A DNA stretch of 60,626 bases from a virus: positions 1 to 60,626 of IMG/VR virus record IMGVR_UViG_3300008113_004447; one strand, given 5' to 3'. This document shows, piece by piece, positions 17,805 through 48,288 of the stretch (positions are counted from its first letter, which is position 1; the number at the start of each line of letters is the position of its first letter). The position numbers were made by a program, and so were the translations under genes. The notes below the pieces were generated by a model. The model did no database searches, was not told the origin of the DNA, and saw nothing but the letters and a program-made list of their open reading frames with translations.

Positions 17805-17805
17805 A

Positions 17806-26232: not shown

Positions 26233-26234
26233 CA

Positions 26235-27742: not shown

Positions 27743-27750
27743 GGACTAAC

Positions 27751-31304: not shown

Positions 31305-32363
31305 ATGACTACCCAAACTGTATCACTTTGTGAAACCTGTTATCGACATATTCCTGCAGAACGGTTTGAGCGCGAAGGAGCAATGTGGTTAGGTAAGACG
31401 TGCGCCAAACACGGATATCAAGAAGCAATATTAGATATTAACACAGAATTTTATAAAAGTCAAAAATATACTCGCCGAACTCCTAGCTCATATTGGTTAG
31501 ATATTACTAATAGGTGCAATTTAGATTGTCCACATTGTTATCAAATTCCAGATAACACTAGCAAAGACCCAGACATTGATTATTTGTTAATGCAGGTACA
31601 ATCTTGGCCCGATGACGGTTTGCCTGTTAGTCTTGTTGGGGCAGAACCTACAGTAAGAAAAGATCTTGCAGATTTAGTGTTAGCCATACAGGCATTGCCC
31701 GGCAAACCTAGAACTGTTATAATAGTCACTAACGGGGTGTATCTTGCTAAATGGGATTATGTAAAAAGATTCGAAGGTATCCCTAGACTTAAATGGACGT
31801 TTGGATTAAATCATCCAGATTACAACGGCGGCAATATTAGAGTTAAGCAGTTAGAAGGTTTAGAGAACTGCATTAAATTAGGGCTCGAAGTTAAAACATT
31901 AACTTACACATTAGGCAATTTAACTCAATTAACTGATGTTCTCGAGGAAGTGCAAACATTTCATCGAAGAGGCGTTTGTCATAATGCAAGAATACAAGTA
32001 GGAGTTAATATTGGTCGAGTTCCGGAGGAGACTGAAGATAGCGAACTGTATCTTTCGGAATTAGTATGCGAAGCTGAAAAAATATGTACAGAAAAAAATT
32101 GGACATATTTTCCGGATATTGTTGGTGGTAACAGAACACACTACGCTGTAGATATTAACGGTGCAGAGCATAAATTTATTAAATGGTGCGATGTCAAAAC
32201 TATTGACCTTGAAGAAGTACAAAGTGAATCTTGGGCTAACATTGTGCCAGGAAAGCCAATGTCAACTTTATTGCATCAAGTGATATTAAGAGATCAGGCA
32301 ATAAACAAAGGATTACCGTTATTTGATACTATACCGGAAAAGTATCAAAGACAGGACATATGA
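31305..32363 (+). CDS. Radical SAM protein, MJ0619/Tes-like, paralogue 1
   Basis: 352 residues. The N-terminal CETCYRHIPAERFEREG...KTCAKHG (C9, C12, C33, H36) is the zinc-ribbon-like leader of the MJ0619/tetraether-synthase radical SAM group. The radical SAM site is C71-NLD-C75-PH-C78 (DITNRCNLDCPHC), and VSLVGAEPTVRKDL replaces the usual GGEP. Known relatives act on pterins or lipids, so substrate is open. Overlaps the next paralogue by 4 nt (ATGA). Confidence 0.88.
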   Translation: MTTQTVSLCETCYRHIPAERFEREGAMWLGKTCAKHGYQEAILDINTEFYKSQKYTRRTPSSYWLDITNRCNLDCPHCYQIPDNTSKDPDIDYLLMQVQSWPDDGLPVSLVGAEPTVRKDLADLVLAIQALPGKPRTVIIVTNGVYLAKWDYVKRFEGIPRLKWTFGLNHPDYNGGNIRVKQLEGLENCIKLGLEVKTLTYTLGNLTQLTDVLEEVQTFHRRGVCHNARIQVGVNIGRVPEETEDSELYLSELVCEAEKICTEKNWTYFPDIVGGNRTHYAVDINGAEHKFIKWCDVKTIDLEEVQSESWANIVPGKPMSTLLHQVILRDQAINKGLPLFDTIPEKYQRQDI

Positions 32364-33427
32364 AAAAATTAGCAGACACTACATCAATTTGTGAGCATTG
32401 TTATAGACATGTGCCAGCAGTTCGATTTGAACGAGACGGTGCTATTTGGTTGAGTAAAAAATGCGTATGGCACGGAGAGTCAGAATATCTTGTAGAGCCT
32501 AACGCTGATTTTTATATTAACTATACATATCCAATCCCTGAAAATACTACGTATTGTCTAGACATCACTAATAGATGCAATTTAAATTGCCCACATTGTT
32601 ATCAAATCCCCGACAATATGAGTAAGGATCCGTCAATAGACGATATTCTTAATATAATAAAATCTTGGGATGATGACGGGTATGCTGTTGCGTTAATGGG
32701 CGCAGAGCCAACGACTCGAAAAGATCTTCCTGAACTATGCAGGGCTATTCAATCATTACCCGGCAAGTTACGTGCAATTATGATTTTAACCAATGGGGTA
32801 TATTTGTCCGATTACGAATATGCTGAACAATTTGCAGACATGCCGAAAGTGTTGTGGACGGTTGGATTAAATCACCCCGACTATCAAGGTGCAACTGTTA
32901 GAAAGAAACAAATTGAAGGTATTGAAAATTGTTTAAAGCTAGGAATGAAAATTAAGAATGTTAGTTACACTCTTGAAACTATTTCTCAGCTTGAATACTG
33001 CTTAGAAGAAATACAAGAGTTCGGTAATAGAATTTGTAGTCAGTATCGAATTCGGGTTGGTACAGACATTGGCCGTCACCCTGGCGAGGAAAAAGTATTT
33101 CTATCGGAACTGATAGAAATGGTAATTGCAGTGTGTGACAAGAAAGGATGGCAACATGAGTATGATCCAGAATATGGGATTAGAGTACATTATCCTTTGC
33201 GTATTAATGGCATATTAGTTAAAATTATTCAATGGCCGGATGTACGTACTATTGATCTTGAAGAAGAGCAAACTGAGTCTTGGGCCGATATGCTACCAGG
33301 AAAACCAGTGTCTCCACTTGTTCACCAAGTTATACTTAGAGATGGTGCAGTAAATAAAAATTTACCTTTATATGATACTGTACCTGAAAAATATCAGAGA
33401 AAATATGATACACGGAATAAACAATAA
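32360..33427 (+). CDS. Radical SAM protein, MJ0619/Tes-like, paralogue 2
   Basis: 355 residues, clear tandem duplicate of 31305. Leader CEHCYRHVPAVRFERDG (C11, C14, C35), radical SAM C73-NLN-C77-PH-C80, and MGAEPTTRKDL. The C-termini match (LPLYDTVPEKYQRK). Two near-equal copies suggest distinct substrates or successive positions of one substrate. Confidence 0.88.
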   Translation: MKKLADTTSICEHCYRHVPAVRFERDGAIWLSKKCVWHGESEYLVEPNADFYINYTYPIPENTTYCLDITNRCNLNCPHCYQIPDNMSKDPSIDDILNIIKSWDDDGYAVALMGAEPTTRKDLPELCRAIQSLPGKLRAIMILTNGVYLSDYEYAEQFADMPKVLWTVGLNHPDYQGATVRKKQIEGIENCLKLGMKIKNVSYTLETISQLEYCLEEIQEFGNRICSQYRIRVGTDIGRHPGEEKVFLSELIEMVIAVCDKKGWQHEYDPEYGIRVHYPLRINGILVKIIQWPDVRTIDLEEEQTESWADMLPGKPVSPLVHQVILRDGAVNKNLPLYDTVPEKYQRKYDTRNKQ

Positions 33428-33440
33428 AACATATTACAAC

Positions 33441-34205
33441 ATGGAACAATATGTGGATATGGAAGCATTTGAAAAAATGCAGCCAGAAATCCTAACAGGA
33501 TTTGCTGTAGCAAGACATCATGCTAAAGAAGGTACATGGATGGCACCGGGGTTTACCTTTGATGATATGAGCTATAAGCTGCACTGGAAACCTATATACC
33601 AAGCAATGGAAGAATTTAAAGCATTGCCAGACGGGCCTCTTAAACAAGCAGGTATGGCACTAATGCCTAAGAATTTTAAAAACTTTCAAGAACGTAACGT
33701 ATTCACTCGTTTCTTAAAAATGGCCATGGGTGCTTATGATCCTTACATCTATTATTACTTGTGGGAAGAAGGTTCGTGGGACGATAGAACAGCACCTCGC
33801 AAACTAACACCCGAAGCACAATATTTCCCTAATGTAGTTAAGTGGGTCGAAAGCCTTGTAGGTACAGTGTTTGAAGATATTGGGCGTGTTATATTCTTTC
33901 ATTGCGAAGCAGACGGCATCCCGTTTGAACACAGAGACTTAGATGCTCGGAATGGGGTTAATGTTGTTGTCCCGCATCGTAATGAATTTATACATATACG
34001 TCCTAACACTAAGAAGGCAATGTACCTGTGGGATCCAGAGACTAAAAATAAAACTTACTTGAACTGCCGTGCTGCATGGTGGAATGATGTTGACTGGCAC
34101 GGTGGTGAACAGATTATGGAACAGAGCTACGGGTTACGCATTGACGGCAAATTTACACAAGCATTCCGTAAACAGTTAGGCGTTGATCATTTAGAGAACT
34201 ATTAA
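33441..34205 (+). CDS. 2OG-Fe(II) oxygenase-like protein, 254 residues
   Basis: The start is uncertain: ATG 33441 lies after the previous stop, ATG 33405 would overlap by 23 nt. FHCEADGIPFEHRDLDARNG gives HxD (EHRD), VDWHGGEQ the distal His and SYGLRIDG the Arg. VFTRFLKMAMGAYDPYIYYYLWEEG is an added helical part. Follows the two radical SAM paralogues in one transcript. (Longest motif quoted is split by spacing in the protein as residues about 90-115.). Confidence 0.78.
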   Translation: MEQYVDMEAFEKMQPEILTGFAVARHHAKEGTWMAPGFTFDDMSYKLHWKPIYQAMEEFKALPDGPLKQAGMALMPKNFKNFQERNVFTRFLKMAMGAYDPYIYYYLWEEGSWDDRTAPRKLTPEAQYFPNVVKWVESLVGTVFEDIGRVIFFHCEADGIPFEHRDLDARNGVNVVVPHRNEFIHIRPNTKKAMYLWDPETKNKTYLNCRAAWWNDVDWHGGEQIMEQSYGLRIDGKFTQAFRKQLGVDHLENY

Positions 34206-34615
34206 TGAAATTTATTGAAAAATTTAAAGAAATGGCTCGACCTGGTTATTCAAATAATAATTTTTTCTTTCATCAGATGAATCCAAAATCTAAAGAAATG
34301 CAAAATTTTAAATTTACTCTACCTGAGTTGCCTGAAACACGAACCGACGTTAATTGGTGGTTTGTAATGTTATATCCTGGCGAGTTCCAAGCTATGCACA
34401 TCGACCCTCAACTGACTGAAGTCAGTAATCCGGTACGATACACTATGTTTTTACAAGATTGGGAACCCGGACACATATTTGTCTACGATGACAAAGTTGC
34501 TGCAAATTATAAAGCCGGTGATATATTTGAGTGGAGTGATCCTATGACCGTACACGGGCCGGCAAATATAGGATACAACACAAGATACACTCTACAAATA
34601 ACTATGTACGATTAA
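34205..34615 (+). CDS. Minimal 2OG-Fe(II) oxygenase-like protein
   Basis: 136 residues, one of the smallest here. WWFVMLYPGEFQAMHIDPQL gives HxD, IFEWSDPMTVHGPANIG the distal His and NTRYTLQITMYD the Arg. Starts within the stop of the previous gene; ends in a 4-bp convergent overlap. Confidence 0.75.
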   Translation: MKFIEKFKEMARPGYSNNNFFFHQMNPKSKEMQNFKFTLPELPETRTDVNWWFVMLYPGEFQAMHIDPQLTEVSNPVRYTMFLQDWEPGHIFVYDDKVAANYKAGDIFEWSDPMTVHGPANIGYNTRYTLQITMYD

Positions 34616-35160
34616 CTATGAACAATTATATGAAAAATATACTGTGGACGTAGTCCGGCATTGATTCCGCTGTGCCATTCTTTGTAATTGTTCCACTTTA
34701 TCAACTGTCCAAAATCTTGATTGTACAGATAATCATTACCTACAATAAGAATATGGCCGTGATTAGCACCTTCCATAAAACAACTATATCTTGTTAAAGT
34801 TCCTTTTTCAAGATAAGCAGCTTCCTCTTCGTCAACATCCCAATGCCACGGAGCCATATAGCCCGGGTCTATTCGACTTATCCAGGCACGTACTAATCTA
34901 CCGCCCATGTCTTTAGCAAACTTTGTTGCAAACATTTCATCAAAATGTTCTTTAGGATAAAAATTAGTCCATTTGATACTGTCCATATTGAAATTAGCAG
35001 CTTGCCATCTTTCATATATTTCTTTGTATCCCGGAGTTTCTAAATTCCATATTTCTGGATCTGTAGTAATTGTTTTTCCTTGTTGGGATGATATAACGGC
35101 AATCAGTTGACTCCAGTTATACTCTCCTCCTGACGTGCCTAACGATGTAACACTATTCAT
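34612..35160 (-). CDS. 2OG-Fe(II) oxygenase-like protein
   Basis: 182 residues from ATG 35160, chosen because it overlaps the upstream stop by 8 nt; the longer frame (35196) overlaps by 44. WISRIDPGYMAPWHWDVDEEE gives HxD (WHWD), EWHSGINAGLRPQYIFHI the distal His and Arg. Operon with the kinase-like and hydroxylase-like genes upstream. Confidence 0.78.
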   Translation of the reverse strand: MNSVTSLGTSGGEYNWSQLIAVISSQQGKTITTDPEIWNLETPGYKEIYERWQAANFNMDSIKWTNFYPKEHFDEMFATKFAKDMGGRLVRAWISRIDPGYMAPWHWDVDEEEAAYLEKGTLTRYSCFMEGANHGHILIVGNDYLYNQDFGQLIKWNNYKEWHSGINAGLRPQYIFHIIVHS

Positions 35161-35836
35161 TGAATAACCTTTTATAAAATTTTGGAAACGGATCACCTGG
35201 CCATTTCACATGTGTTGAAAGTGTTCTTTTAAAAAACATTTCAAAATCTATTAACCCATCAGAAGTAACTTCATCAAATCGAGTTCTTGATCCTTGGCCT
35301 AACATACCTTCTATTTTAGCTTTTTCAAGATACCTCTCTTCATGAGAAATACAAGAATAAAAATCAAAGGTTTTTAATTTATTATTTTTATCTAGATAAA
35401 AGCAATGGGGATATAACGCCATTTTGTAATACCCGGCAGAGACAACGTCTTTTAAAATATTGAATAATTGTGGTTGCCAATCCGAGCACTCTTTGTCAAT
35501 GTCACGGCTATCAGTATATACAATATCATTGCAAGTTTCAACATTCCATTCGATAAAAATCTTTTTGTTTTCTTTATCAATTTCAATAATGGAAGGTGCC
35601 CAACTGTACCCTTGAAATATTTCAAGATACTTAACTTCTCTTTCAAAAAAGAAATCTACTAATTCTTTTGTAAGCCGTGTATTTTCTTTTTGGTATTCAC
35701 TAGTTTCATCCCACAACATGCACATTATATTGCCCTCCGGATTAATCAACGGAGTGTACAATAAATTTGTGGCACATCGGATCTTATCTACAGGATCTTG
35801 CTTGTAGTAATATTTCCAATTGGTTGTATCTATCAT
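35153..35836 (-). CDS. Kinase-fold-like paralogue 2
   Basis: 227 residues, related to 30562 (WKYYYKQDPVDKIRCATNLLYTPLI; FEREVKYLEIF; YPHCFYLDKNNKLKTFDFYSC). Catalytic kinase residues are not recognisable. Both copies sit in minus-strand operons with 2OG oxygenases or unknown enzymes, so a shared partner role is plausible. (Motifs at about 6-30, 66-76 and 140-160.). Confidence 0.5.
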   Translation of the reverse strand: MIDTTNWKYYYKQDPVDKIRCATNLLYTPLINPEGNIMCMLWDETSEYQKENTRLTKELVDFFFEREVKYLEIFQGYSWAPSIIEIDKENKKIFIEWNVETCNDIVYTDSRDIDKECSDWQPQLFNILKDVVSAGYYKMALYPHCFYLDKNNKLKTFDFYSCISHEERYLEKAKIEGMLGQGSRTRFDEVTSDGLIDFEMFFKRTLSTHVKWPGDPFPKFYKRLFNE

Positions 35837-36504
35837 AATATGTGTAACTCGAATTCAGGATATAAAATATTTTTCAAATCATCTATTGCTATCTTTTCTA
35901 TAGTGAAAGAAACACAAGTCGGTGTGTGGTTAAATGCAGTTATCAAATTATTTTTATTGGCATAATTCAACCACACACTAATAGTTTGATCAAAAAAGAA
36001 TCTAGCATTATTTTGATCTAACCTCGATGGCGTAATTTTAACATCGATTGGGTTGTTCAAAATGTTAGGGGTCAATAGTTTTCTTACAACCAATTGTACT
36101 CGAACTATCTGGCCAAAGTTTGCTGCACTGTGCCTCGGACTAGCATCCATTTCATACCAAAATCCATCTTGGGTAGTTTCAAACATTTCTTGGCTATCAA
36201 TGTTAATTATAAAACTTTCGCTACCAGAAAGATTTAAATGGTAACGATCGTCAATGTCGGAATGACACTGATAACATTCCCCTGCCTTTAAGCCGATAAT
36301 CCTAGCTTCTCCAAAATCTACAGGAAGTGTGTTTAAAATCTTTTCCCAAGCTGTATCTTTATACTCTAATTTGGTTTCCCAGGGATCATAAAAGAATCTA
36401 CCCGTTGGTTCATTAATAGTCAACCGGAAATCAGTAGGCGGAACGGACTGTAGTGCGTCTTGTATCAGATTTGTAGAGACTGTATAATGTAACTTAGTTA
36501 GCAT
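35833..36504 (-). CDS. Asp/Asn hydroxylase-like 2OG oxygenase with extra domain
   Basis: 223 residues from ATG 36504; the longer frame runs across the divergent promoter. LKAGECYQCHSDIDDRYHLN gives HxD, MDASPRHSAANFG the distal His and IVRVQLVVRKLL the Arg. The last 70 residues (IDVKITPSRLDQNNARFFFDQ...) form an added domain that I do not recognise. TAAATA is 4 nt before the ATG. Confidence 0.78.
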   Translation of the reverse strand: MLTKLHYTVSTNLIQDALQSVPPTDFRLTINEPTGRFFYDPWETKLEYKDTAWEKILNTLPVDFGEARIIGLKAGECYQCHSDIDDRYHLNLSGSESFIINIDSQEMFETTQDGFWYEMDASPRHSAANFGQIVRVQLVVRKLLTPNILNNPIDVKITPSRLDQNNARFFFDQTISVWLNYANKNNLITAFNHTPTCVSFTIEKIAIDDLKNILYPEFELHIL

Positions 36505-36508
36505 GAAA

Positions 36509-36514
36509 TATTTA
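36509..36514 (-). promoter_or_regulatory. TAAATA motif 4 nt before the start
   Basis: Minus-strand CATAAATATTTC then ATG at 36504; no Shine-Dalgarno. Back to back with the motif at 36533. Confidence 0.55.
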
Positions 36515-36532
36515 TGTGATACTTTAATGGTG

Positions 36533-36538
36533 TAAATA
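36533..36538 (+). promoter_or_regulatory. TAAATA motif 4 nt before the start
   Basis: GTAAATAAAAC then ATG at 36543; no Shine-Dalgarno. The whole divergent intergenic region is only 38 bp. Confidence 0.55.
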
Positions 36539-36542
36539 AAAC

Positions 36543-37391
36543 ATGAGTAGAATAACCATTGCACCGACTTACGATGCACAATGGCTTGAGATTGAGAGGC
36601 CGCAGCCTCTCACTGATTTTAAAATTGAACAACTTCAGCAAGATGTATTAAGTGGAAAAATTGACAAGGATATTACGGACAGCGTCTATGACAATTTTAA
36701 ATTTGAAGTTGAGCAATGGCTACTGAGGTCTCCGTTTAATAATTTTATAGGGCTTGATTCATTTTTACGCAAAGATATTATAAACGGATGTACACAATTT
36801 ATTGATAACTTATACATGCAAGGGCCTGTACAAGTATTACGTAACGATTACAAATATCACGAAAGATTGGGATTAGCGTATGTAAAAGATGTGGGCTCGC
36901 TGATACCAGATGTTCCATTAATCCTAGCGATGCCGTTTCCTAGCATCGGTGCGCCACATCAAGACATGGAGGAAATATTAAATGAATGTTTGGTTAAAAA
37001 GATTAAGGTCCACATTGACGGTGCTTGGACCACCTGTTGTCGTAATATCATATTTGATTATGGGCATCCTGCTATATCTAGTGTTGGTATTAGTCTTTCC
37101 AAGGGTCTAGGGTTAGGATGGAACAGAATAGGTTTACGTTGGACTCGGCAATCAACTCTAGATAGTGTTACAATAATGAATGACTTCCATATGAACAATC
37201 GTGCATTGGCAATGATTGGCTTACATTTTATACGCAATTTGCCACCGGATTATCTTTGGTTAACGTATGGTGAACATTATTATAAAGTCTGTAGAGATTT
37301 CAATTTACTTCCAACACGAAGTATACACCTAGCAATAAAGGACGGACATCCAGTAGGGGTAAGCCCATTGATAAGGTATTTAGAACAATGA
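36543..37391 (+). CDS. Aminotransferase-like PLP protein (fold type I), short
   Basis: 282 residues, shorter than the usual 380-400. KVHIDGAW carries D159, where the Asp that binds the PLP ring nitrogen is expected. SLSKGLGLGWNRIG carries K187, the Schiff-base lysine, and R195, a phosphate ligand (class I/II pattern SxSKxxG...RxG). The N-terminal part is abbreviated and the small C-terminal domain reduced. Overlaps the PP-loop gene by 4 nt, so both act with the radical SAM gene that follows. Reaction unknown. Confidence 0.7.
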   Translation: MSRITIAPTYDAQWLEIERPQPLTDFKIEQLQQDVLSGKIDKDITDSVYDNFKFEVEQWLLRSPFNNFIGLDSFLRKDIINGCTQFIDNLYMQGPVQVLRNDYKYHERLGLAYVKDVGSLIPDVPLILAMPFPSIGAPHQDMEEILNECLVKKIKVHIDGAWTTCCRNIIFDYGHPAISSVGISLSKGLGLGWNRIGLRWTRQSTLDSVTIMNDFHMNNRALAMIGLHFIRNLPPDYLWLTYGEHYYKVCRDFNLLPTRSIHLAIKDGHPVGVSPLIRYLEQ

Positions 37392-38125
37392 AGTTACATA
37401 ATGTAGACGGAGTTAATATACCATTCGAAACTACATGGAATAATATTGCCATTAGTGTAAGCGGTGGCGCTGATAGTGCTATGTTAGCTTATCTTCTTTG
37501 CAACCTAGTTCCTAGCTATCAAAAGAATTTCAAAGTTCATGTCATTAGCCATGTACGTATGTGGAAAACAAGACCATGGCAACAATGGGACAGCGTGTCT
37601 GTTTATAACTGGCTTACACATCGATTTCCTAATATAACATTCCAGAGACATATTAATTTTATAGCACCCGAATTAGAGTACGGAAACATAGGTCCGTCAT
37701 TGACAGACGAATACGGAAAAAATGTTAGTGGTGATAATATAGAACAACGATCATTTGCTGAATTTACTTGTCATCGTGAAGATGTTGATGCGTACTATAA
37801 TGCTGTTACACGCAATCCTAAAGATGTAAATTTTAAAGGGATGTCGGAAAGAGACATTGACCCCAACGAAAGTAATCAACATTTAACAATAATGATCCAT
37901 ATGGGGAAATACGCAATTCACCCGTTTAGATTTGTAGAAAAGTCTTGGATAGTTAATCAATACAAACGATTAGACATTGAAGATCTATTTAATATTACCC
38001 GTAGCTGCGAAGGCGAGTTTAACGGAATAAATTATAAAACATATACACCTGGACAATTTGTTCCGTTATGTAACGAATGTTTTTGGTGTAAAGAAAGGGC
38101 GTGGGCAATTGAACAGCAACATTAA
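37388..38125 (+). CDS. QueC-like PP-loop ATPase
   Basis: 245 residues. SVSGGADSAMLAYLL (23-37) is the PP-loop (SGGxDS) that adenylates a carboxyl or carbonyl. Near the C-terminus TRSCEGE...LCNECFWCKERAWAI gives the four-cysteine zinc site of QueC, the 7-cyano-7-deazaguanine synthase that makes a nitrile. True QueC or a relative that amidates or activates another acid cannot be told apart here. A QueD homologue is at 56379; neither QueE nor a transferase is certain. Confidence 0.75.
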   Translation: MKLHNVDGVNIPFETTWNNIAISVSGGADSAMLAYLLCNLVPSYQKNFKVHVISHVRMWKTRPWQQWDSVSVYNWLTHRFPNITFQRHINFIAPELEYGNIGPSLTDEYGKNVSGDNIEQRSFAEFTCHREDVDAYYNAVTRNPKDVNFKGMSERDIDPNESNQHLTIMIHMGKYAIHPFRFVEKSWIVNQYKRLDIEDLFNITRSCEGEFNGINYKTYTPGQFVPLCNECFWCKERAWAIEQQH

Positions 38126-39377
38126 TCCTCCAACATTTTGTATGCACCCTTTTACAGGACTAGCTACTAGAGAAGACGGTGCTATACAAGTATGCTGCCG
38201 TAGCCATCCTATTGGCTGGATACAAGAACAATCACTAGAAGAAATATGGAACGGCGATAACATGAAACGTATTCGCAAACAGGTACTCGGCGGTGTCCGT
38301 CCTCCTGAGTGTGAACCATGTTTTAGTTTAGAAGACCAAGGGGTTGAAAGTTTAAGATTGCGACATATCAAAGGCGAAATACCAGAAGCACGTATTAAAT
38401 TATATCCAAACGCAACTGCGGCAATGCATAGTGATTTTACTATGCCTTTTGAAATTCCAACAATGGAATTAAAATTAAATAATCTTTGCAATTTAAAGTG
38501 TCGTATGTGTCATCCAGGCGATAGCACCAGTTGGAATGATTGGAGTGAAATTAAAGATTTTTATAAAGGTTCTGGACAGGTTATTTTTAATCTAGTAGAA
38601 GAACATAATTTAGAAAATAAACCGTTACTTGATAAGTTCGAAGATAACCCTAATTGGTGGGCGAGTTTAGAAAAGAACCTGCCTCACTTTAGACGTGTGG
38701 AGTTTGCAGGTGGCGAGCCGCTAATGGATCCACAGCATTATCGAATCTTAGACATGCTTGCTCCGTATGGACACCAAATTGAAATTAAGTATGCTACTAA
38801 TCTAACTACCTTAGGTAAAGGTAATAGAACAGTTTGGGAATACTGGCCCAAGTTCAAATCAGTGGCTGTAAATGTAAGCATAGACGGAATTAGTTCTAGT
38901 TATGAATATGTTAGAGGAAATGCTTCGTGGGAAGAATTAATTAATAATATAAAACAAATACAAACTATCCCTAATATTAGTCGTATAGTCGGTGCTGTTG
39001 CAGTGCAAGTAAGCAATGTATTGGTATTAGATAAAATGATAGAATATTTTTTAAATGATTTAGGTATTGTATTTTATACAAACATGGTAAAATACCCTAA
39101 TGTATTATCCATTCAAACATTACCGGCGCCTTTAAAGAATATTGCATATCATAAATTAGAAGTAATGAAAAGTAAAATATTAGAATATAAAATGATTAAA
39201 GAACATCCAATGCTTGTAGGAATTACTATTGGACAAATTGAAGGAGTTCAAAATTTCCTCCGTGCTAAGGATGAAAATCACTTATGGAAAGATTGTATCG
39301 AATTTAATCGTAAACTAGATGTCACCCGCAGTCAAAGTTTTACAGATGTAACTCCGGAATTCAAACCATATGTATAA
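38109..39377 (+). CDS. Twitch-domain radical SAM protein 1
   Basis: About 422 residues from a TTG at 38109, chosen because the conserved FCMHPFTGLATREDG must be included and no ATG precedes it outside the previous gene; the start is uncertain. N-terminal twitch (C11, C29-C30, C68, C71) binds an auxiliary cluster; the radical SAM site is C127-NLK-C131-RM-C134, then FAGGEPLMDPQH. Twitch/SPASM radical SAM enzymes commonly modify peptides. Overlaps the PP-loop gene. Confidence 0.85.
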   Translation: MNSNINPPTFCMHPFTGLATREDGAIQVCCRSHPIGWIQEQSLEEIWNGDNMKRIRKQVLGGVRPPECEPCFSLEDQGVESLRLRHIKGEIPEARIKLYPNATAAMHSDFTMPFEIPTMELKLNNLCNLKCRMCHPGDSTSWNDWSEIKDFYKGSGQVIFNLVEEHNLENKPLLDKFEDNPNWWASLEKNLPHFRRVEFAGGEPLMDPQHYRILDMLAPYGHQIEIKYATNLTTLGKGNRTVWEYWPKFKSVAVNVSIDGISSSYEYVRGNASWEELINNIKQIQTIPNISRIVGAVAVQVSNVLVLDKMIEYFLNDLGIVFYTNMVKYPNVLSIQTLPAPLKNIAYHKLEVMKSKILEYKMIKEHPMLVGITIGQIEGVQNFLRAKDENHLWKDCIEFNRKLDVTRSQSFTDVTPEFKPYV

Positions 39378-40263: not shown

Positions 40264-41248
40264 TAACATGTGTCTCTGGTTGGCATGAGCATGTTTCGCG
40301 TGGACATATGATTGACTTAAAATCAATTATTGGGGCAAAGTCTTGTTCAAATGTTTCTGAAAATACATTAGGCACATTATCCCCAAATACTGACTCCTGA
40401 CACGAACCTGTTGCTGATCCGTCTGGGTTTATCAATAGTGTTTCTAACGCAACATTACACTTCCAGCCTTTAAATTTGTTCCATCGATTAACTATAATCG
40501 AATGTGCTCTAGCAGGATATGCTGACTCATCATCAAACATCACAATACTTTCGTGTGTTCTAATGTCTCCAAAGTTTCTAATAATCCAATCAGAATCAGG
40601 AACACGCTTGAGACTAGCATTAACATAGGCCAGCTGTTCTTCGTTGTAGACATCCATTCCCCGTCCAGGCGAATCAACAACTTCCTTAGTTTGAATATAC
40701 CAAGGATATTCACTTTGTTTCATCTTTTCAACATATGAAATACACTTATCCCAATTTTGTGCATCCATTAACATAAGTCCGTTTACTTTAACTCCGTTGC
40801 TGTGTAACTTATCAGCGACCGCAACATAGTGATCGATATCAGTAAACTCATTATGTCCGCTTAAAGTTACTGCATCAAAGTATGCTGAATTTTCATTCCA
40901 CCAATTTAGTGTACGAGATCCGTTGGTAATAACAGTAATGCGAACATCGTGTTGTTCTTTTATTTCTTTACAAAACTTTTCAATATGCGGCCATATAGTT
41001 GGTTCGCCGCCGCCAGTAAGCATCAAGTTAAATTTTGTTTTGTTAAGATTGTTAGTGTATGCATCGAACAATATACGGAAATTCTTGATAACTGTGTCAA
41101 TATTCTTTGGGTATCTAAATTTGTTTACATTTCCAGAACCAGGGAAACAATAAGAACAGTTGAAATTACAGATGTCAGTGGGTATAAACCTTACGTGAAG
41201 GACATCTGGTTCTTGTGTTGATATAATTTTTATAGGAATTTTTTTCAT
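40247..41248 (-). CDS. Radical SAM protein with C-terminal Cys-rich region
   Basis: 333 residues. CNFNCSYC (C27, C31, C34), LMLTGGGEPTIWPHI, and the shared end GWKCNVALETLLINPDGS...ICPRETCSCQPETHVTK. Homologous to its convergent neighbour 39370, which suggests a duplication with inversion. Last gene of the seven-gene minus-strand operon. Confidence 0.87.
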   Translation of the reverse strand: MKKIPIKIISTQEPDVLHVRFIPTDICNFNCSYCFPGSGNVNKFRYPKNIDTVIKNFRILFDAYTNNLNKTKFNLMLTGGGEPTIWPHIEKFCKEIKEQHDVRITVITNGSRTLNWWNENSAYFDAVTLSGHNEFTDIDHYVAVADKLHSNGVKVNGLMLMDAQNWDKCISYVEKMKQSEYPWYIQTKEVVDSPGRGMDVYNEEQLAYVNASLKRVPDSDWIIRNFGDIRTHESIVMFDDESAYPARAHSIIVNRWNKFKGWKCNVALETLLINPDGSATGSCQESVFGDNVPNVFSETFEQDFAPIIDFKSIICPRETCSCQPETHVTKSLI

Positions 41249-42654
41249 AATATGTGTGCCAGTTCTGGAAATATTTTTTTAGCATCCAGATGTCGAATTT
41301 CATCTAAGTTTTTAATGTACTCTTTGAAGTCTGGCAACATATGACTATGGTCTTCTGCATCAATAAATTTTAAAATGCCTTCCCATCGTTTCCAGCCATA
41401 GGGATTATGATGCCAGAAGTTGTCGTCTTGAGTGTAATTGTCCCATAACCATTGTTTAAATTCAACAAACTGTTGCCGTATTTCGTCTTTGTCTTTTTGC
41501 GGTAGTATCCTAGCACTCAAGAAAGTAGGAATATATAACAGGTGTAGATTTATGATACCGCCCCCTGTTTCATAATCATCTAATTTAAACTTATTAATTT
41601 TTTTAAAGTTCTGTTCTAACTTCCATTTAGCAAAATCGACAATATGTTTGACGTTTAACACCTGTACCGCACAAGCAACAGCACAATGTACATTATCAGG
41701 AGCATTGTCCATTAGACGTAAACTAGCTAAGATGTCTTGCCAATCGGTCGGAAATCTAATATAGCCGTTACGTAAGTGTACTGCATCGATGCTAAATGCA
41801 AACCGCACCTGTTTGAACTGTGCCCAGATATCAATTATTTCTTGGTTGACAAAAATGCCGTTTGAATTATAGCGTAGACTAATTTGTTTGGCATATCCAC
41901 GTTTAATAATTTCATCTAAGAATCTACGATGCTCTTTAATCATTAAAGGCTCACCGCCAGCAAAGTATAACTGTGTTATATTAGGAATTTGATCAAATAC
42001 ATCGTTCCAAAATTCTGGCTTCTCGTACCAAGTATTATTAAATTCTGCTGCTTTCCAATCGATTTGTTTTAACACAATAGGACTAGAAGTCATGTTAACT
42101 ACTTTAGCATGATCCTGTATCCAACGACTGCTATCGTGCGGACTACACATAACACATTTTAAATTGCAGGTATGCCCAAGCCTTAGATCTAAGTAACGAA
42201 TAACAGGAGGAACTACTCCATCTTCTGTGGTATCGGCAATTAGTTGAGCAACATCTAACCCATCGCGATTCCATTCATACATTTCCCATAGACGTTTGCT
42301 CACAATACCGTTGCTTTCTTCTTCAAAACATTTACTACAACTAGCTGGTATCTTACCTTCTAGCATTGTCTTACGTACATCACGCATATATTCATTGTTG
42401 AATGCGCTTAGAGGAGTATCCTTGCCAAAGTTTGCAGGCTCTCCGTTTTCTTTTTTAACCAATCCTACAGTATGATCGCCAGTATGAGCTCCGCTAGCGT
42501 TAGTAACACAACACAATCTAGCATCTCCATTAGGGCGAGTAGCCATATGAATCCAAGGAAGGGCACAGAAGCTATAACTTCCAGTGAGTTTCTCAATTAA
42601 TCTCTGGCCTGCACCAATACGAGTATCTTCGGGCTGTAGCCAAAATACTTTCAT
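41245..42654 (-). CDS. Twitch-domain radical SAM protein 2
   Basis: 469 residues. N-terminal twitch SFCALPWIHMATRPNGDARLCC (C30, C48, C49) with C106/C109, radical SAM site C163-NLK-C167-VM-C170, and YFAGGEPLMIKEHRRFL. Same architecture as 38109 on the other strand. ATGA overlaps on both sides. (Twitch block about residues 28-49.). Confidence 0.87.
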   Translation of the reverse strand: MKVFWLQPEDTRIGAGQRLIEKLTGSYSFCALPWIHMATRPNGDARLCCVTNASGAHTGDHTVGLVKKENGEPANFGKDTPLSAFNNEYMRDVRKTMLEGKIPASCSKCFEEESNGIVSKRLWEMYEWNRDGLDVAQLIADTTEDGVVPPVIRYLDLRLGHTCNLKCVMCSPHDSSRWIQDHAKVVNMTSSPIVLKQIDWKAAEFNNTWYEKPEFWNDVFDQIPNITQLYFAGGEPLMIKEHRRFLDEIIKRGYAKQISLRYNSNGIFVNQEIIDIWAQFKQVRFAFSIDAVHLRNGYIRFPTDWQDILASLRLMDNAPDNVHCAVACAVQVLNVKHIVDFAKWKLEQNFKKINKFKLDDYETGGGIINLHLLYIPTFLSARILPQKDKDEIRQQFVEFKQWLWDNYTQDDNFWHHNPYGWKRWEGILKFIDAEDHSHMLPDFKEYIKNLDEIRHLDAKKIFPELAHIL

Positions 42655-43712
42655 TTAACTTCCTGATCCTTAAATTTAGCAAAGGTGTTTGTAGGACCTA
42701 CCCCACAGCTTCTAGCACAGACAATCATTTTTTCCTTATACCAGTAGTCGTCCCACATAGTTTGAAATGCTTCTGAATCAATTATATCTTGTAACGGACG
42801 CTCTATTAGATTAACAGTACCCAATCTTGAACTCATATCGTCATGTTGACGTTTCATTTCGTTACGTACACCGGCAGCTTCGTCATCGCTGATAACTGTA
42901 TAAGGTATATTTGCCATCCAGCAACAAGGATAAAAATCTTTGTATGCATCGATGTACACTTCGTTTTCATGTTGTGCTTTACAATGAATAGTCGAATCAG
43001 CAAGAATTTCCTTGTAAGCCTGAATAACTTTTCTATCAATAAATTTTAAAGGAGTATCAGATGCTGGCTCAACATAATGTGTTAAATTACCAGCTCGATC
43101 TACAACAGCCTGTCTCGGTTCTATGATAAATCTACTGCTGTTTTTTAAGGTGAATCTTGCAAACCCTAATTCATCTGCCATGCGTCTTGCATCTTCAACT
43201 TGATGTTCATTATGTTTGAATCGTATAAAACACCATTCTGCATTTCCGCCAGCAGCTATAAATGCCTGTGCATTTTTTAGAACCGTTTCAAATTTAGTAC
43301 CTACTCGATACAGGTGATGTGTATCTTCTAGTCCATCTAATGCAAAGACAACAATGTGGTCCGACGGTAATGCCTGAGCTAGCTTTTGCCACCAGTCGGT
43401 TGTACGGGCACCACCATTTGTATGTACTGCTACGTGTACTGTAGGAGCAGTGATCTTTGCATATGCGCACATCTTGATTAAATCATTGTTAAGCATCGGA
43501 TCGCCGAACGTCCCGCAGAAATAGAAACTGTGCAATTGTTTCAAAAACTCTGGATACATGATGGTTTTAAAATCTTCAAAGGTCCATTCGTTGATTTTAA
43601 TCAACGGGTTTTCTTTACCGCTATCAATATTTCTACTGCACATAGGACAACTTGCTTGGCAGTTATTGGATATTTCCAAATGTACTTGTTTTATTTCGTT
43701 AAATTTAAACAT
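42651..43712 (-). CDS. Radical SAM protein, CQASCPMC tandem copy 1
   Basis: 353 residues. NCQASCPMCSRN (C18, C22, C25), FYFCGTFGDPMLNNDL in place of GGEP, VHTNGGARTTDWW, and a C-terminal set of cysteines (DFYPCCWM; VCARSCGVG) likely binding an auxiliary cluster. Close paralogue of 43705. Confidence 0.85.
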   Translation of the reverse strand: MFKFNEIKQVHLEISNNCQASCPMCSRNIDSGKENPLIKINEWTFEDFKTIMYPEFLKQLHSFYFCGTFGDPMLNNDLIKMCAYAKITAPTVHVAVHTNGGARTTDWWQKLAQALPSDHIVVFALDGLEDTHHLYRVGTKFETVLKNAQAFIAAGGNAEWCFIRFKHNEHQVEDARRMADELGFARFTLKNSSRFIIEPRQAVVDRAGNLTHYVEPASDTPLKFIDRKVIQAYKEILADSTIHCKAQHENEVYIDAYKDFYPCCWMANIPYTVISDDEAAGVRNEMKRQHDDMSSRLGTVNLIERPLQDIIDSEAFQTMWDDYWYKEKMIVCARSCGVGPTNTFAKFKDQEVK

Positions 43713-44793
43713 TAGTTTCTACAATTTTAATTTTTTGCTCATTGATACTTATGTAAGGACTGTATGGTCCGCACATTATTATACAAGTAGAACTGGATCT
43801 TTCATCCCATTTTTTCTGCCACATAGTTTGCCATTGATCAGTATCGACAATGTTTTTTAACCCTGTAGTTAACACATTAAATTTTGGAAACGATAATACC
43901 TGTTCTTGAACTTTTGCGCCTTCTTCTACAATGGAATCTTCTTCATATAAATTATACTGTTTCAATAATTTAGAATCATAACTGGTATACATGAATGCGC
44001 CAATCATACAACACGGACTCAATAGGTAGTGAGCATCGATGTACAGCTCTTTGTCATTTTGTGATTGACAATGTATCTCGTCAGCTCTCGGCCACTCTTG
44101 ATGCCCAGCAACATCATTCTTGCTAACAAACTTAACTACGCTATCTGTAGTTTGCTCTATGTTATATAAAAGTTTACCATCAGCATCTACTACAGGGAAC
44201 GGTCTACTGAATCGTTTACTATTCTTTACTGTAAAACGTTTGAAACCAATTTTGGCCGATACTTTTTCTGCTTCGCTAACCTGATGTTCGTTATGTTTGA
44301 ATTTAATAAAGACCCATTCGGCAATTCCGCCTGCTTGAATAAAGGCACAGGCATTATCGATAATTTTTTTGAACGACGTGCCGATACGATAAATGTGGTG
44401 AGTACCTTCTAGCCCGTCTAACGCAAAAATTACTCTGTGATTTGGCGGCAACGACTGTGCTAACAGTTTCCACCACGAGGCAGATCTTGCGCTGCCGTTG
44501 GTATGTATTAGAACTTCAATATTAGGAGCATGCTCTTTTACATACTCACACATTTTGATTAGATTATTATTTAGAATAGGATCGCCAAAGTCTCCACAGA
44601 AGCTGAGTTGATTAATTTGTTCTAACACATCCATTGAAAAAATTGTAATAAAGTCATCAAGACTCCAATCATTCAAAGGCAAAAGAGGATTTTCTATCCC
44701 GCCATGGATGTTTCTAGGACACATTGGACAGGATGCTTGACACCTATTAGTGATCTCAACCTGCACAATTTCTAATTGATCGAACTTAAACAT
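43705..44793 (-). CDS. Radical SAM protein, CQASCPMC tandem copy 2
   Basis: 362 residues, aligned with 42651 throughout (RCQASCPMCPRN; LSFCGDFGDPILNNNL; LIHTNGSARSASWW; FIKFKHNEHQV). C-terminal cysteines LLSPCCMIG and TCIIMCGPY are kept. Overlaps neighbours by 8 nt. Confidence 0.85.
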   Translation of the reverse strand: MFKFDQLEIVQVEITNRCQASCPMCPRNIHGGIENPLLPLNDWSLDDFITIFSMDVLEQINQLSFCGDFGDPILNNNLIKMCEYVKEHAPNIEVLIHTNGSARSASWWKLLAQSLPPNHRVIFALDGLEGTHHIYRIGTSFKKIIDNACAFIQAGGIAEWVFIKFKHNEHQVSEAEKVSAKIGFKRFTVKNSKRFSRPFPVVDADGKLLYNIEQTTDSVVKFVSKNDVAGHQEWPRADEIHCQSQNDKELYIDAHYLLSPCCMIGAFMYTSYDSKLLKQYNLYEEDSIVEEGAKVQEQVLSFPKFNVLTTGLKNIVDTDQWQTMWQKKWDERSSSTCIIMCGPYSPYISINEQKIKIVETNV

Positions 44794-46378
44794 TTAGTTT
44801 CTTATTAATATAATTTTGAACGTGGTCTTTGTATTTTTGATCAGCAGTATCTACTTCCGATACTCTCTTATCATATACATCTTCGTATTGATTTGTTTCA
44901 TTATAGATAAACAGTCGATCAGTCAGAAAAGGATTACACCCCCGTAGGCCTTTAAATCCGTTGTTTGAATAAAAATCTTTTACTAGAGTTTCAGCTTGGT
45001 ACCAATCCATTGTGTTATGTTGCCAAATAACAATGTCATTCCTGGTACTGCCTACGCCACCGCCCCTGGGAGTTGTTGATTGAAAGACTACATCTTTGTT
45101 TGCATCTTTAAAAACATCGTACCCTGGATTCTGTCTTGCCTCTAACTTAACAAGACCATTGCTTACAAGCTCTTTGGTAAATCGACTTTGATTAGTAAGT
45201 GTTTCATCATAGTCGCCTATCTCTAATATGTGTGCGCTGGCGCTTTGTCTAGTCCAATGAGTATTCAACCATGCTAAACTAGTGTTCCAGGACTCGGTAG
45301 TTTCGCCCGGTATACCGCAAATCATTTGTATGTTTGCTCTATAACGTTTAGGTGCATGTGTATCAGTGTATGTCTGAAACTCTAATAGGCCCTGTTGTAA
45401 CTTGTCAGGATCCATTCCCTTGCGCACAAGTTTACCGGCCTCATGATTAAAAGTTTCAATACCCATACTGTGGCCAAGGAAGCCTAATTTAATATAGGTG
45501 TCCCAGTGCTCTTTGTGTTTAACAACTAAGTCCCCGCGAGCAAATCCACATATCCACGGATCATATCCTAGTTCGTCGACTGCCTCTGCATATTTTTGTA
45601 ATTTCTCAGGACGGTCGTTAAACGTTTCGTCCATTACTCGCCAATTTTTAATGCCCCACTTCTCATAACCTGTTTGCATTTGACGTTTAAATTCTTCTTT
45701 GCTAACACTAACGTCTTTGGATTGTCCAAGTAATGGAAAATTACAATAGCTGCAACTAAACATACAACCACGTGCTGTTTCAATTTGCGGACAATCATAC
45801 GGGCTCATAAAATCACGAGCTTCGTAGTCTACTAGATAGCTGTCTAATGGTGTACTTGGGTAATGATATAACCCCCTAATGACTTTCTTTGTACCAAAAA
45901 ACGCAGGATCAGTTAGTAACGGTGCGCCTAATGTACCAGTAAGATGCTTGCATAACGACAAGATAGCATTCTCACCATAGCTATCTACCCAGTAGTCAAC
46001 TCCATCAGCTGGAGTAACTAGTGCATTATTGCCGCCGACTACAACAGGTATAGTGGGGTATGATAGTTTAAGCCACGTAATGAATTCATTTAAGTAAGGA
46101 CTCCACGGATTTAAAAATGCTGTGCCAAAACAGAACATAACTGTGTTGTCTGTTGTACGTGAACGTACTAGTTCCTGTAATTCTTCTAATCGCCAAAAAG
46201 CAGTAAAGTCAACGACTTCAGCGTCCCAATCATTCATACGTAAAAACGTTGCCACACGGTGTGGCCAGAGGGCTCGTTCCCAACGCTTGCCTGTTAACGA
46301 AAAGAATAATGCGTGGTTCATTGATGTCCAATTACCATAAATCTTTTGTACAAGGGCAATTCTAATTCGCCTGTCCAT
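44786..46378 (-). CDS. B12-binding-domain radical SAM protein
   Basis: 530 residues from the ATG at 46378; starts at 46399 and 46321 are also in frame. RIALVQKIYGNW is the first strand of a cobalamin-binding Rossmann domain and YPTIPVVVGGNNALV the region before its GG turn; the DxHxxG loop is not evident. Radical SAM site RGCMFSCSYC (C205, C209, C212), then MICGIPGETTESWN. This class often methylates or ring-contracts unreactive carbons. Ends with a helical tail. Confidence 0.83.
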   Translation of the reverse strand: MDRRIRIALVQKIYGNWTSMNHALFFSLTGKRWERALWPHRVATFLRMNDWDAEVVDFTAFWRLEELQELVRSRTTDNTVMFCFGTAFLNPWSPYLNEFITWLKLSYPTIPVVVGGNNALVTPADGVDYWVDSYGENAILSLCKHLTGTLGAPLLTDPAFFGTKKVIRGLYHYPSTPLDSYLVDYEARDFMSPYDCPQIETARGCMFSCSYCNFPLLGQSKDVSVSKEEFKRQMQTGYEKWGIKNWRVMDETFNDRPEKLQKYAEAVDELGYDPWICGFARGDLVVKHKEHWDTYIKLGFLGHSMGIETFNHEAGKLVRKGMDPDKLQQGLLEFQTYTDTHAPKRYRANIQMICGIPGETTESWNTSLAWLNTHWTRQSASAHILEIGDYDETLTNQSRFTKELVSNGLVKLEARQNPGYDVFKDANKDVVFQSTTPRGGGVGSTRNDIVIWQHNTMDWYQAETLVKDFYSNNGFKGLRGCNPFLTDRLFIYNETNQYEDVYDKRVSEVDTADQKYKDHVQNYINKKLNV

Positions 46379-46911
46379 AGAACATTTTCTAACTGACATT
46401 GTTGTGTAAACTCAGTTAGGTCTTTTGCGGTTCGAACATGCTCTGGAATATTATAATTGTTACTTTGTAAAACAAGCAAACTATTATGCGGCATTCCACT
46501 TAACCACAAGTCATATTGGTCCTGGGTAATATGTTCACAGCTGGTATTGATAACAACATCAGCATCGCTACGTATTTCGCACATATCGGAAGTGATAGCA
46601 CGAAACATCCCAGCCATCTCTTCTTTTTTATTCATCATGGTAGCAATAGGTTCGCACAATGGATCGATGTCAATGCTACGAATAGTAGTTACGCAGATGT
46701 CGCTTTGGAATAACATACTTGCTAATACTCCAACCCACCCTCCATGAATGTCAATGCTGACAACTTTGTTTACATTTTTACGAAGGTTAGTAATTAACCA
46801 TTCTTTGCTTTTAAGTTGTCCCTGCCAAAAGGCATCCATGGTCCTCATAGGATCAGGACTTTGGCGGATGGCCTGCATCCAATAATGTAGGTGTTCTGTA
46901 TCTATTTGCAT
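46318..46911 (-). CDS. SAM-dependent methyltransferase-like protein
   Basis: 197 residues. VVSIDIHGGWVGVLASML fits motif I of class I methyltransferases, IRSIDIDPLCEPIATMM motif II (acidic end of strand 2) and DADVVINTSCEHI motif IV. NTSCEHI with LVLQSNNY suggests a small-molecule or peptide methyltransferase. Overlaps both neighbours, so it is part of the radical SAM operon. Confidence 0.75.
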   Translation of the reverse strand: MQIDTEHLHYWMQAIRQSPDPMRTMDAFWQGQLKSKEWLITNLRKNVNKVVSIDIHGGWVGVLASMLFQSDICVTTIRSIDIDPLCEPIATMMNKKEEMAGMFRAITSDMCEIRSDADVVINTSCEHITQDQYDLWLSGMPHNSLLVLQSNNYNIPEHVRTAKDLTEFTQQCQLENVLWTGELELPLYKRFMVIGHQ

Positions 46912-47879
46912 TTTGGTATCTTGCTATCTGCTGAACTCACACAGTTAGGAGTAATGCAGCGTTGAGGAGTTTTAAATAACTCAAATTTTTCTAAAGAGCC
47001 TAACGGTTCATCATGACAACTATATGATCTTTTAACTTCCTCACCTCTTATTATAACACTTTGATATCCGCTATTGCAATCCCAGTCTTTAAATTTGTTA
47101 AAACCGTAGGCATTGAATCGTTCTGCTTGATCGAATAAATGTTTAGTGCCGTCTGCTTCATATAGGGCAATTTGGTAAGTGTCTTCACCATTAGCACGTT
47201 GTGGAAATCCTGTTTGCATCTTGTGTATCATGTCTTCGGTATAGCCATCAACGATGCCCGATGCAGTTGGATTACTCTGTGGCTTTAGCGTTACGTTGAT
47301 TCCACGCTTATGGAAACGTTCCATGCGTTCATACAGTTCATAAAACTTTTCAGGTACCATTACTTGATTGATTGTAACGTGTACTAGTTCGTATTGTAAC
47401 TGTAAACACTTGTCGCCAAACTCTTGTTCCTTGGCAAACTCATCGTGAAAGCTGGCTGTAATACTTCTACGTTGTAACAGCGCAGTGTTGGCACACCAAG
47501 TGTTCCACCATTTGCTACCGGGACTCAAATTGGTAGTCATATGGATACTTTGGTAAGGGCTTTCGGTTTCGTCCAAATGTTTAACAAGATCATTTAACTG
47601 TTTATAAGCAGTGGGCTCACCGCCCGAGAAGCTCCAATGAAATTGATTGAATCCATTTTCACGAGCCTGTCGTTTGATTTCATCTACTGTTCGTTTGTAT
47701 ACATCTAACGATTGGTGATCTACTTTGTCACTGCGGGCATAGGGCCAACAGTAGCTACATTTATAATTGCAAAATCTTCCCAAAATCCAGCTAGTAGAAA
47801 ACAACGGTTGGCTTAACATTGTTCGTTGTCCAAATCGTACAATATTGTTAAACGGAATATTTTGAAAATTAGTTGTCAT
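46902..47879 (-). CDS. Radical SAM protein, first gene of the minus operon
   Basis: 325 residues. CNYKCSYC (C37, C41, C44), FSGGEPTAYKQLNDLV, and an end with WDCNSGYQSVIIRGEEVKRSYSC then CITPNCVSSADSKIPKCK, comparable with 39370 and 40247. Leads a seven-gene run (46902 down to 40247) in which all genes overlap. A TAAATA motif lies 10 nt upstream. (Cys-rich end about residues 272-325.). Confidence 0.87.
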   Translation of the reverse strand: MTTNFQNIPFNNIVRFGQRTMLSQPLFSTSWILGRFCNYKCSYCWPYARSDKVDHQSLDVYKRTVDEIKRQARENGFNQFHWSFSGGEPTAYKQLNDLVKHLDETESPYQSIHMTTNLSPGSKWWNTWCANTALLQRRSITASFHDEFAKEQEFGDKCLQLQYELVHVTINQVMVPEKFYELYERMERFHKRGINVTLKPQSNPTASGIVDGYTEDMIHKMQTGFPQRANGEDTYQIALYEADGTKHLFDQAERFNAYGFNKFKDWDCNSGYQSVIIRGEEVKRSYSCHDEPLGSLEKFELFKTPQRCITPNCVSSADSKIPKCK

Positions 47880-47942: not shown

Positions 47943-48054
47943 GTGGTCGTGAGTGGAATATGGCAGACCTCCAGCTCGTTGGGAAACGATGTTAGGGTGA
48001 GAGGCAACGTCTTAGACATCGCCTTTGTAGGTTCGAATCCTACCGACCACACCA
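47943..48054 (+). tRNA. Atypical 112-nt tRNA-like gene, anticodon unresolved
   Basis: Acceptor GTGGTCG/CGACCAC, T-arm GTAGG-TTCGAAT-CCTAC, discriminator A and encoded CCA are excellent, and GAGTGGAATATGGCAGACCTC resembles a Leu/Ser-type D-arm. The middle is far too long: TCGTT-GGGA-AACGA is a perfect tetraloop hairpin and GATGT/ACATC another stem. No 7-nt anticodon loop can be placed. Either an unusual class II tRNA, a tRNA with an insertion, or a tRNA-like RNA. Confidence 0.6.
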
Positions 48055-48099: not shown

Positions 48100-48288
48100 A
48101 TGTCAACAGTTGATCAATTAAAAGCAGACTTCGAAGCATTCTTGGCAGAGGACGCAAAGTTTACAGCAGGTAATGGCGCAGCAGGTACTCGCGCTCGTAA
48201 AGCTCTACAAGAAGTTGCCAAGGGTGTTAAAGCTCGCCGCAATGAAATTACGACAGAAAAGAACGCCCGCAAAGAAGCCAAGGCTTAA
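48100..48288 (+). CDS. Histone-H1-like basic protein
   Basis: 62 residues. QLKADFEAFLAEDAKFTAGN then AAGTRARKALQEVAKGVKARRNEI matches the bacterial histone-H1-like (Hc1-type) pattern (...GNxxAGTRARKALxExxK...), with a basic KNARKEAKA tail. Probably binds DNA non-specifically, on phage or host chromosome. AAGGA ribosome binding site. Confidence 0.7.
   Translation: MSTVDQLKADFEAFLAEDAKFTAGNGAAGTRARKALQEVAKGVKARRNEITTEKNARKEAKA

Follow-up and report, generated by a model that had tools for sequence, protein, structure and literature searches.

A conserved cassette of radical SAM enzymes and oxygenases beside a tail-fibre gene: a candidate tailoring pathway in uncultured phages

Introduction

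The nearest described likeness to the gene cassette analysed here is found in the T4-like Campylobacter phages CP220, CPt10 and CP21 (Firehammervirus), in which clustered, interchangeable genes for radical S-adenosylmethionine (radical SAM) proteins lie near baseplate and tail genes. CP220 and CPt10 encode 11 and 12 radical SAM proteins, respectively, and each carries an interchangeable block of five radical SAM genes, unlike in sequence but alike in function, together with a putative amidinotransferase gene (PMC2853527; Timms et al., 2010). Our cassette was studied over the interval 31305–47879 of the IMG/VR record IMGVR_UViG_3300008113_004447, the whole of which (60,626 nt) is referred to as the window, and its genes for ten radical SAM proteins belong to the same kind of module, defined by several clustered radical SAM genes of a T4-like phage that relatives exchange either singly or as a whole block (PMC2853527).

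Three further systems are comparable in part. The T4-like environmental genome TARA_ERS488813_N000010 (183 kb) has 12 radical SAM genes (PMC5332604; Nishimura et al., 2017); they are treated there under Fe–S protein metabolism, in an account that does not describe clustering. In pelagimyophages a hypervariable tail-fibre host-recognition island gains and loses radical SAM cassettes between relatives (PMC7029224), although the account of the island describes mainly glycosyltransferases and no cassette of comparable size. For cyanophage S-SSM6a a halogenated secondary-metabolite cluster of 8–12 genes, with 2-oxoglutarate (2OG) oxygenases and a halogenase, has been predicted (PMC7824862; Iyer et al., 2021). 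Its predicted sugar- or amino-acid-derived product resembles the one proposed below, whereas its core is a carbamoyltransferase and radical SAM genes are not mentioned.

An earlier note on this DNA, made from the letters alone, had known of no described phage with such a set. CP220, CPt10, the TARA genome and, as far as the island is described, the pelagimyophage cassettes contradict it. Relative to earlier phage modules, the novelty lies in how large and how widespread the cassette is, in its mix of enzymes and in its conserved core: it is a larger, chemically richer version of them. Searches of open-licence papers found no paper on this cassette and no later functional paper on the Campylobacter-type modules. 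A large group of uncultured jumbo T4-like phages carries the cassette, and its product is probably a sugar- or amino-acid-based molecule that is built or decorated.

Radical SAM proteins of the cassette

In a profile search of the whole window, PF04055 matched at exactly ten sites, every one within 31305–47879. Nine of the proteins exceeded the Pfam gathering score; R8 fell below it and was placed by its match to phrog_21308. All ten are therefore radical SAM proteins, as the earlier note had read from their CxxxCxxC motifs. They are as follows (E values in brackets).

31305–32363, + strand: R1, N-terminal zinc ribbon plus radical SAM (PF23545 1.8e-13, PF04055 5e-12; Cys 9, 12, 33, 71, 75 and 78 invariant)
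32360–33427, + strand: R2, radical SAM paralogue of R1 (PF23545; PF04055 1.5e-15)
38058–39377, + strand, start possibly 38109: R3, N-terminal twitch radical SAM (NF033640 5.9e-98)
39370–40263, + strand: R4, radical SAM of C-terminal SPASM/twitch type (PF04055 4e-14; Cys 236, 256, 279, 284 and 286 conserved)
40247–41248, − strand: R5, SPASM/twitch-type radical SAM (PF04055 7.5e-13; C-terminal Cys conserved)
41245–42654, − strand: R6, N-terminal twitch radical SAM (NF033640 5.7e-115)
42651–43712, − strand: R7, twitch-like radical SAM, phrog_21308 type (7.9e-24; Cys 244, 263, 264, 332 and 336 invariant)
43705–44793, − strand: R8, twitch-like radical SAM, phrog_21308 type (8.3e-22; PF04055 4.7e-5)
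44786–46399, − strand: R9, predicted B12-dependent-type radical SAM, PhpK-like (TIGR04479 1.2e-15, under the equivalog cut-off; 65 distinct viral loci)
46902–47879, − strand: R10, SPASM/twitch-type radical SAM at the cassette end (PF04055 1.8e-13; Cys 268, 288, 308 and 313 invariant)

Between 23 and 48 homologues were aligned per family. The CxxxCxxC motif is invariant in nine of the ten families; in the R5 family it is present in 42 of 47 copies, the remaining five being cut by contig ends, i.e. it is found in every complete copy. The profile scores exclude chance occurrences of the motif. R3 and R6 (328.6 and 384.6 bits, respectively) lie well above the NF033640 cut-off of 170 bits. R4, R5 and R10 are short and have a SPASM/twitch-like set of cysteines at the C terminus, and twitch/SPASM-type cysteines are invariant in seven of the ten proteins. 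R9 is assigned to the B12 type through its similarity to B12-dependent radical SAM families; both classes named in the earlier note, twitch/SPASM and B12, are thus represented.

None of the ten reached the cut-off of an equivalog model of named function, and no reaction can therefore be assigned to them. R1 and R2 carry the PF23545 ribbon, yet scored 68–77 bits against the cut-offs of 450–490 for Tes/HMPTM-type enzymes. R9 scored 56.9 bits against 600 for the PhpK P-methyltransferase (TIGR04479), and R4 scored 38.8 against 206.1 bits (TIGR03365) and 32.6 against 260.1 bits (TIGR03963) for QueE.

Partner proteins

The partners in and beside the interval are listed below; PLP denotes pyridoxal 5′-phosphate.

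24710–25318, − strand: oxA, putative 2OG-Fe(II) oxygenase (HxD...H from sequence reading; weakly conserved among relatives)
25375–26232, + strand: TauD-like 2OG dioxygenase (phrog_24590, taurine catabolism dioxygenase, 1e-9)
26235–27098, + strand: TauD-like 2OG dioxygenase, paralogue of the 25375 gene (by similarity; TauD-like homologue in bacterial locus L146)
27095–27742, + strand: oxB, 2OG-Fe(II) oxygenase (HxD...H by eye; kept in cassettes; homologues in bacterial locus L146)
27751–28587, + strand: TauD-like 2OG dioxygenase, paralogue (by similarity; homologue in bacterial locus L146)
28584–30029, − strand: G28, conserved cassette protein (18 of 24 full cassettes; no convincing profile match)
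30023–30574, − strand: G30a, conserved cassette protein, acyltransferase-like only by eye (20 of 24; no profile match)
30562–31248, − strand: G30b, kinase-fold protein, paralogue of k35 (joint profile A2)
33372–34205, + strand: O33, predicted 2OG oxygenase (H187, D189, H243 and R256 invariant in 44 homologues)
34205–34615, + strand: O34, predicted 2OG oxygenase (H65, D67, H117 and R127 invariant)
34612–35196, − strand: o34m, predicted 2OG oxygenase (H118, D120 and H175 invariant)
35153–35836, − strand: k35, kinase-fold protein (profile A2 against the PDB)
35833–36579, − strand: o35, aspartyl/asparaginyl β-hydroxylase-like 2OG oxygenase (solved β-hydroxylase 7v4f, 2.4e-14; H106, D108, H150, R160 and R166 invariant)
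36543–37391, + strand: A36, fold-type-I PLP enzyme, aminotransferase/decarboxylase-like (predicted fold; Lys187 in SLSKGxG invariant)
37388–38125, + strand: QueC-like PP-loop ATPase (weak matches: PF01171 3.4e-3, under cut-off; phrog_1550, QueC-like, 8.8e-4)
46318–46911, − strand: M46, methyltransferase-like protein (Rossmann motif by eye; 20 of 24)
48802, downstream of the interval: 2OG oxygenase

The earlier note had counted five 2OG oxygenases. Such enzymes are indeed present, with a corrected count of four within the interval (33372, 34205, 34612 and 35833), five directly upstream (24710–28587) and one downstream (48802). Its other partners stand with differing firmness. The PLP enzyme is upheld by the predicted fold and Lys187: a sequence-profile search with A36 gave no match, and its AlphaFold model (predicted local distance difference test, pLDDT, 75) gave L-Thr-O-3-phosphate decarboxylase and HisC as the best Foldseek matches (E of about 1e-8), which suggests the fold type. 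The PP-loop protein is weakly QueC-like, while proteins of the same kind in relatives score above the QueC cut-off. The methyltransferase is a reading of the sequence, with no significant profile match. Joint profile A2, built from G30b and k35, matched protein kinases and Bud32 in the PDB weakly (E of 2e-4 to 5e-4). A structure model of G28 (pLDDT 54) was too poor to use.

Conservation and gene replacement

The cassette genes are tightly packed (intergenic gaps of −82 to +56 bp) and lie on both strands as alternating divergent and convergent runs. Ratios of nonsynonymous to synonymous substitution (dN/dS) against relatives were about 0.01–0.11 in nearly all cassette genes with usable dS, i.e. 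strong purifying selection. Searches of IMG/VR gave 65 distinct loci for R9 and 30 for R2. For counts over the whole block, 24 spanning loci were taken. They had been picked up by R9 and were retained if they carried R6 together with R2 or O33, a choice that in part produces the core counts; a few of the 24 contigs may be near-duplicates. R2, R3, R6, R9, o35, k35 and O34 were present in all 24 full cassettes, R4, o34m and O33 in 23 and R7 in 22, with R1, R5, R8, R10, A36 and the PP-loop gene more variable. The genes are linked, as the earlier note had supposed, and not scattered among relatives. As ten families, those present in 23 or 24 of the loci, are almost always kept together, their product must be of importance to the phage.

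Dozens of IMG/VR contigs keep the gene order but differ by gene swaps, and the swapped positions are occupied by 55 clusters of variable genes. Pfam types found in a pooled scan of 46 proteins (variable genes together with Vibrio phage K566 and window proteins) included glycosyltransferase family GT8, UDP-glucose dehydrogenase, AMP-binding, GDSL-type, Trp halogenase, Asp/Asn hydroxylase and many methyltransferases; the AMP-binding gene is confined to some relatives. Neighbouring genes of relatives include an epimerase (5e-46) and a haloacid dehalogenase (HAD)/nucleotidyltransferase (NTP-transferase) protein. Many core families also co-occur in more distant contigs, and the R3/R6 family has at least 513 relatives and the kinase-fold joint family 384 in IMG/VR. 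Related contigs carry 9–15 radical SAM domains and others 6–18. The highest count (18) is that of the 211,612 bp contig IMGVR_UViG_3300027969_002424, where the domains lie mostly in two blocks (73–89 and 193–207 kb). Against INPHARED, R2 and R9 had no match and R6 had three weak matches.

Tail-fibre neighbourhood and phage type

A tail-fibre gene abuts the oxygenase end of the cassette in the window.

23046–24713, + strand: tail-fibre-like protein with an Mtd_N (major tropism determinant N-terminal) domain (PF18454 1.1e-8; phrog tail fiber)

Among 14 non-redundant relatives, eight have an Mtd_N-like gene no more than 4 kb from this end (13 of 19 when repeated contigs are included); at the other end the count is 1 of 15, and in background windows, counted before the removal of repeats, 1 of 92.

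One long relative, the 186 kb contig G001, encodes a T4-type portal protein (phrog_213, 4e-109) with best matches in phages Atu_ph07, PA5oct and 121Q. The portal was seen in G001 and not in the window; this likeness places G001, the one long relative tested, with the jumbo T4-like phages. Two ARAGORN calls in G001 are a transfer-messenger RNA and a CTA-anticodon tRNA, labelled Pyl. In G001, in a second relative (G003) and in Vibrio phage K566, N-terminal twitch radical SAM genes adjoin proteins that resemble glycosyltransferases by eye.

Comparison with cultured phages

The radical SAM blocks of CPt10 and CP21 sit in a stretch with gp5/PAAR genes on one side and large or tail-fibre genes on the other, and a PLP gene is annotated in the CPt10 block as well. 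Profiles of R4, R5 and R10 match CPt10 and CP21 proteins (E down to 4e-21), which superfamily-level similarity could partly explain; most other families do not match. The Campylobacter phage block is smaller, with about five radical SAM genes, and the CPt10 and CP21 stretches compared gave no match to the 2OG, kinase-fold, B12-type and full-length N-terminal twitch families of the cassette. Vibrio phages K566 and K567 (255 kb genome) have four clustered N-terminal twitch genes of the R3/R6 type, but these are interleaved with glycosyltransferase-like genes, and neither a 2OG set nor a B12-type enzyme was found there.

Peptide, deazaguanine and bacterial origins

The earlier note had listed a peptide, an RNA, a glycan or a small molecule as possible products. 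Its peptide option was not supported. No short open-reading-frame (ORF) family occurred in more than four of 29 sequences (the flanks of 28 loci and of the window), the gaps inside the block leave no space for a precursor gene and all of the named peptide-maturase equivalogs listed were far under cut-off. A ribosomally synthesized and post-translationally modified peptide of the sactipeptide or ranthipeptide type is therefore unlikely. A QueE/7-deazaguanine reading was also rejected for R4 and the PP-loop gene, on the scores under cut-off and on the relatives, where FolE, QueD and lone radical SAM genes sit apart from the cassette; for the latter reason the deazaguanine pathway looks separate from it.

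A GTDB-wide scan with R9 found only four bacterial loci, one with a homologue of 40% identity and three at 27%. The former (L143:3495-5018) is a single homologue with ordinary chromosomal surroundings in a Pseudomonadales metagenome-assembled genome. Two of the four have non-ribosomal peptide synthetase (NRPS) genes as neighbours; one is next to TauD/2OG genes and also to a second radical SAM gene of B12 type. The kinase-fold profile had no match in these four genomes. With so few loci and no kinase-fold protein, a bacterial home for the cassette was rejected.

Other genes of the window

At the cassette edge a 112 nt tRNA-like stretch (47943–48054) has paired acceptor ends, a T-arm and an encoded CCA; neither ARAGORN nor Rfam called it. 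Exact copies of its 3′ part occur in 13 fetched loci, one of which is a slice of this window and some of which are likely to be the same phage. Adjoining the cassette is a gene for a small Hc1-type histone-like protein (48100–48288; PF07432 1.1e-13), overlapped by the ORF at 48173, which has a probable later start near 48293. The window further encodes 27 tRNA genes for nearly all amino acids, set among small genes (10395–21695), a Trp halogenase family protein (13743–15338; phrog_2928 1e-151) with diverged homologues in or near some relatives' cassettes and a Bax inhibitor-1 family membrane protein (50031–50723; PF01027 5e-53). A 6-pyruvoyl tetrahydropterin synthase gene (PTPS, QueD-type; 56379–56894) is followed by a 3-deoxy-D-arabino-heptulosonate 7-phosphate (DAHP) synthase gene (57025–57918; PF00793 1.4e-71). 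The genes at 49352–50029 and 59016–60041 are for ThyX thymidylate synthase (3e-45) and a UV-damage-repair-type endonuclease shared with Erwinia, Dickeya, Vibrio and Aeromonas jumbo phages.

Discussion

The reading that we favour, with a probability of roughly 0.42, is that the cassette is an interchangeable tailoring pathway in the host-recognition part of jumbo T4-like phages, for a sugar- or amino-acid-derived group put on the virion tail or on a cell-surface glycan. A building block derived from a sugar or an amino acid would pass from one enzyme to the next. A36 may aminate or decarboxylate it; the radical SAM enzymes, including the predicted B12 type, could methylate, epimerize, dehydrogenate or couple inert carbons; the 2OG oxygenases would hydroxylate; and the kinase-fold and PP-loop proteins may activate or amidate. 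Placed on the phage tail or on the surface glycan of the infected cell, the finished group would alter recognition or block superinfection, and different phages, through gene swaps, would make different products. Such a pathway fits the gene types, the swapping and the tail position taken together: the swapped-in genes are of sugar and small-molecule tailoring types, the tail-fibre gene stands at one end, the settings in CPt10/CP21, K566 and the pelagimyophages are alike and bacterial homologues of R9 have NRPS or TauD/2OG genes as neighbours. Several points weigh against it. The window's own cassette yielded no identifiable glycosyltransferase, and those glycosyltransferase-like proteins of G001 and G003 that were tested failed in Pfam, PHROG and PDB profile searches. 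Among bacteria, the closest relatives of R9 suggest natural-product pathways and not glycans, and tail adjacency could mark no more than a general accessory-gene hotspot.

Of the alternatives, a diffusible small molecule (secondary metabolite) acting on the host, rival phages or competing bacteria is the strongest, though still unlikely. The bacterial homologues of R9 in NRPS-type loci, and the locus that combines several TauD/2OG genes with a second B12-type radical SAM gene, argue for it. PhpK, the nearest named family to R9, serves a phosphinothricin-type product. The Trp halogenase, DAHP synthase and PTPS genes elsewhere in the window point the same way, as does the halogenated cluster predicted in S-SSM6a (PMC7824862). 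A position beside tail genes would not be expected for such a metabolite, however, and no NRPS, polyketide synthase or exporter gene was seen in the window's cassette, with the AMP-binding gene present in some relatives only. Next in order, and harder to credit, is the modification of side chains in one of the phage's proteins, for which the adjacent tail-fibre/tropism protein is the simplest candidate; receptor binding would then be varied by chemistry and not by sequence. Invariant twitch/SPASM-type cysteines in seven of the ten radical SAM proteins, a design frequent in peptide and protein maturases, the β-hydroxylase-like o35 and the abutting Mtd_N gene are consistent with it; yet twitch/SPASM domains occur in non-peptide enzymes too, no precursor or recognition element was found and, to our knowledge, no tested substrate exists for the N-terminal twitch family. 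It is distinctly doubtful that swaps of these tailoring enzymes, with their radical and oxygen chemistry, serve to diversify the phage's own tail-fibre tropism protein or else a small molecule that this protein binds; if they did, receptor-binding variation would be made by enzymes instead of by sequence change.

Hypermodification of DNA or RNA comes after tail-protein modification and appears improbable. Radical SAM and PLP enzymes occur in phage thymidine hypermodification, and the block has a QueC-like protein, the window a QueD-type PTPS and some relatives FolE. Against this, FolE, QueD and lone radical SAM genes of relatives are away from the cassette, R4 is far under the QueE cut-offs, such thymidylate-synthase family genes as were found show no linkage to the block and the cassette lies by tail genes and not by replication genes. 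The frequent gain, loss and replacement of genes would agree with a loose hotspot, where unrelated metabolic genes gather and share no product. This is very improbable in view of the ten-family core in 23–24 of 24 cassettes, the overlapping start and stop codons, the kept order, the strong purifying selection and the recurrence of core families together in more distant contigs.

The cassette is a large conserved phage enzyme set for the chemistry of unreactive carbons, in which oxygen-sensitive radical enzymes stand beside oxygen-dependent hydroxylases. The core defined here, together with the cultured relatives CPt10, CP21 and Vibrio phage K566, makes the function of such modules testable, 15 years after the first report on Campylobacter phages.

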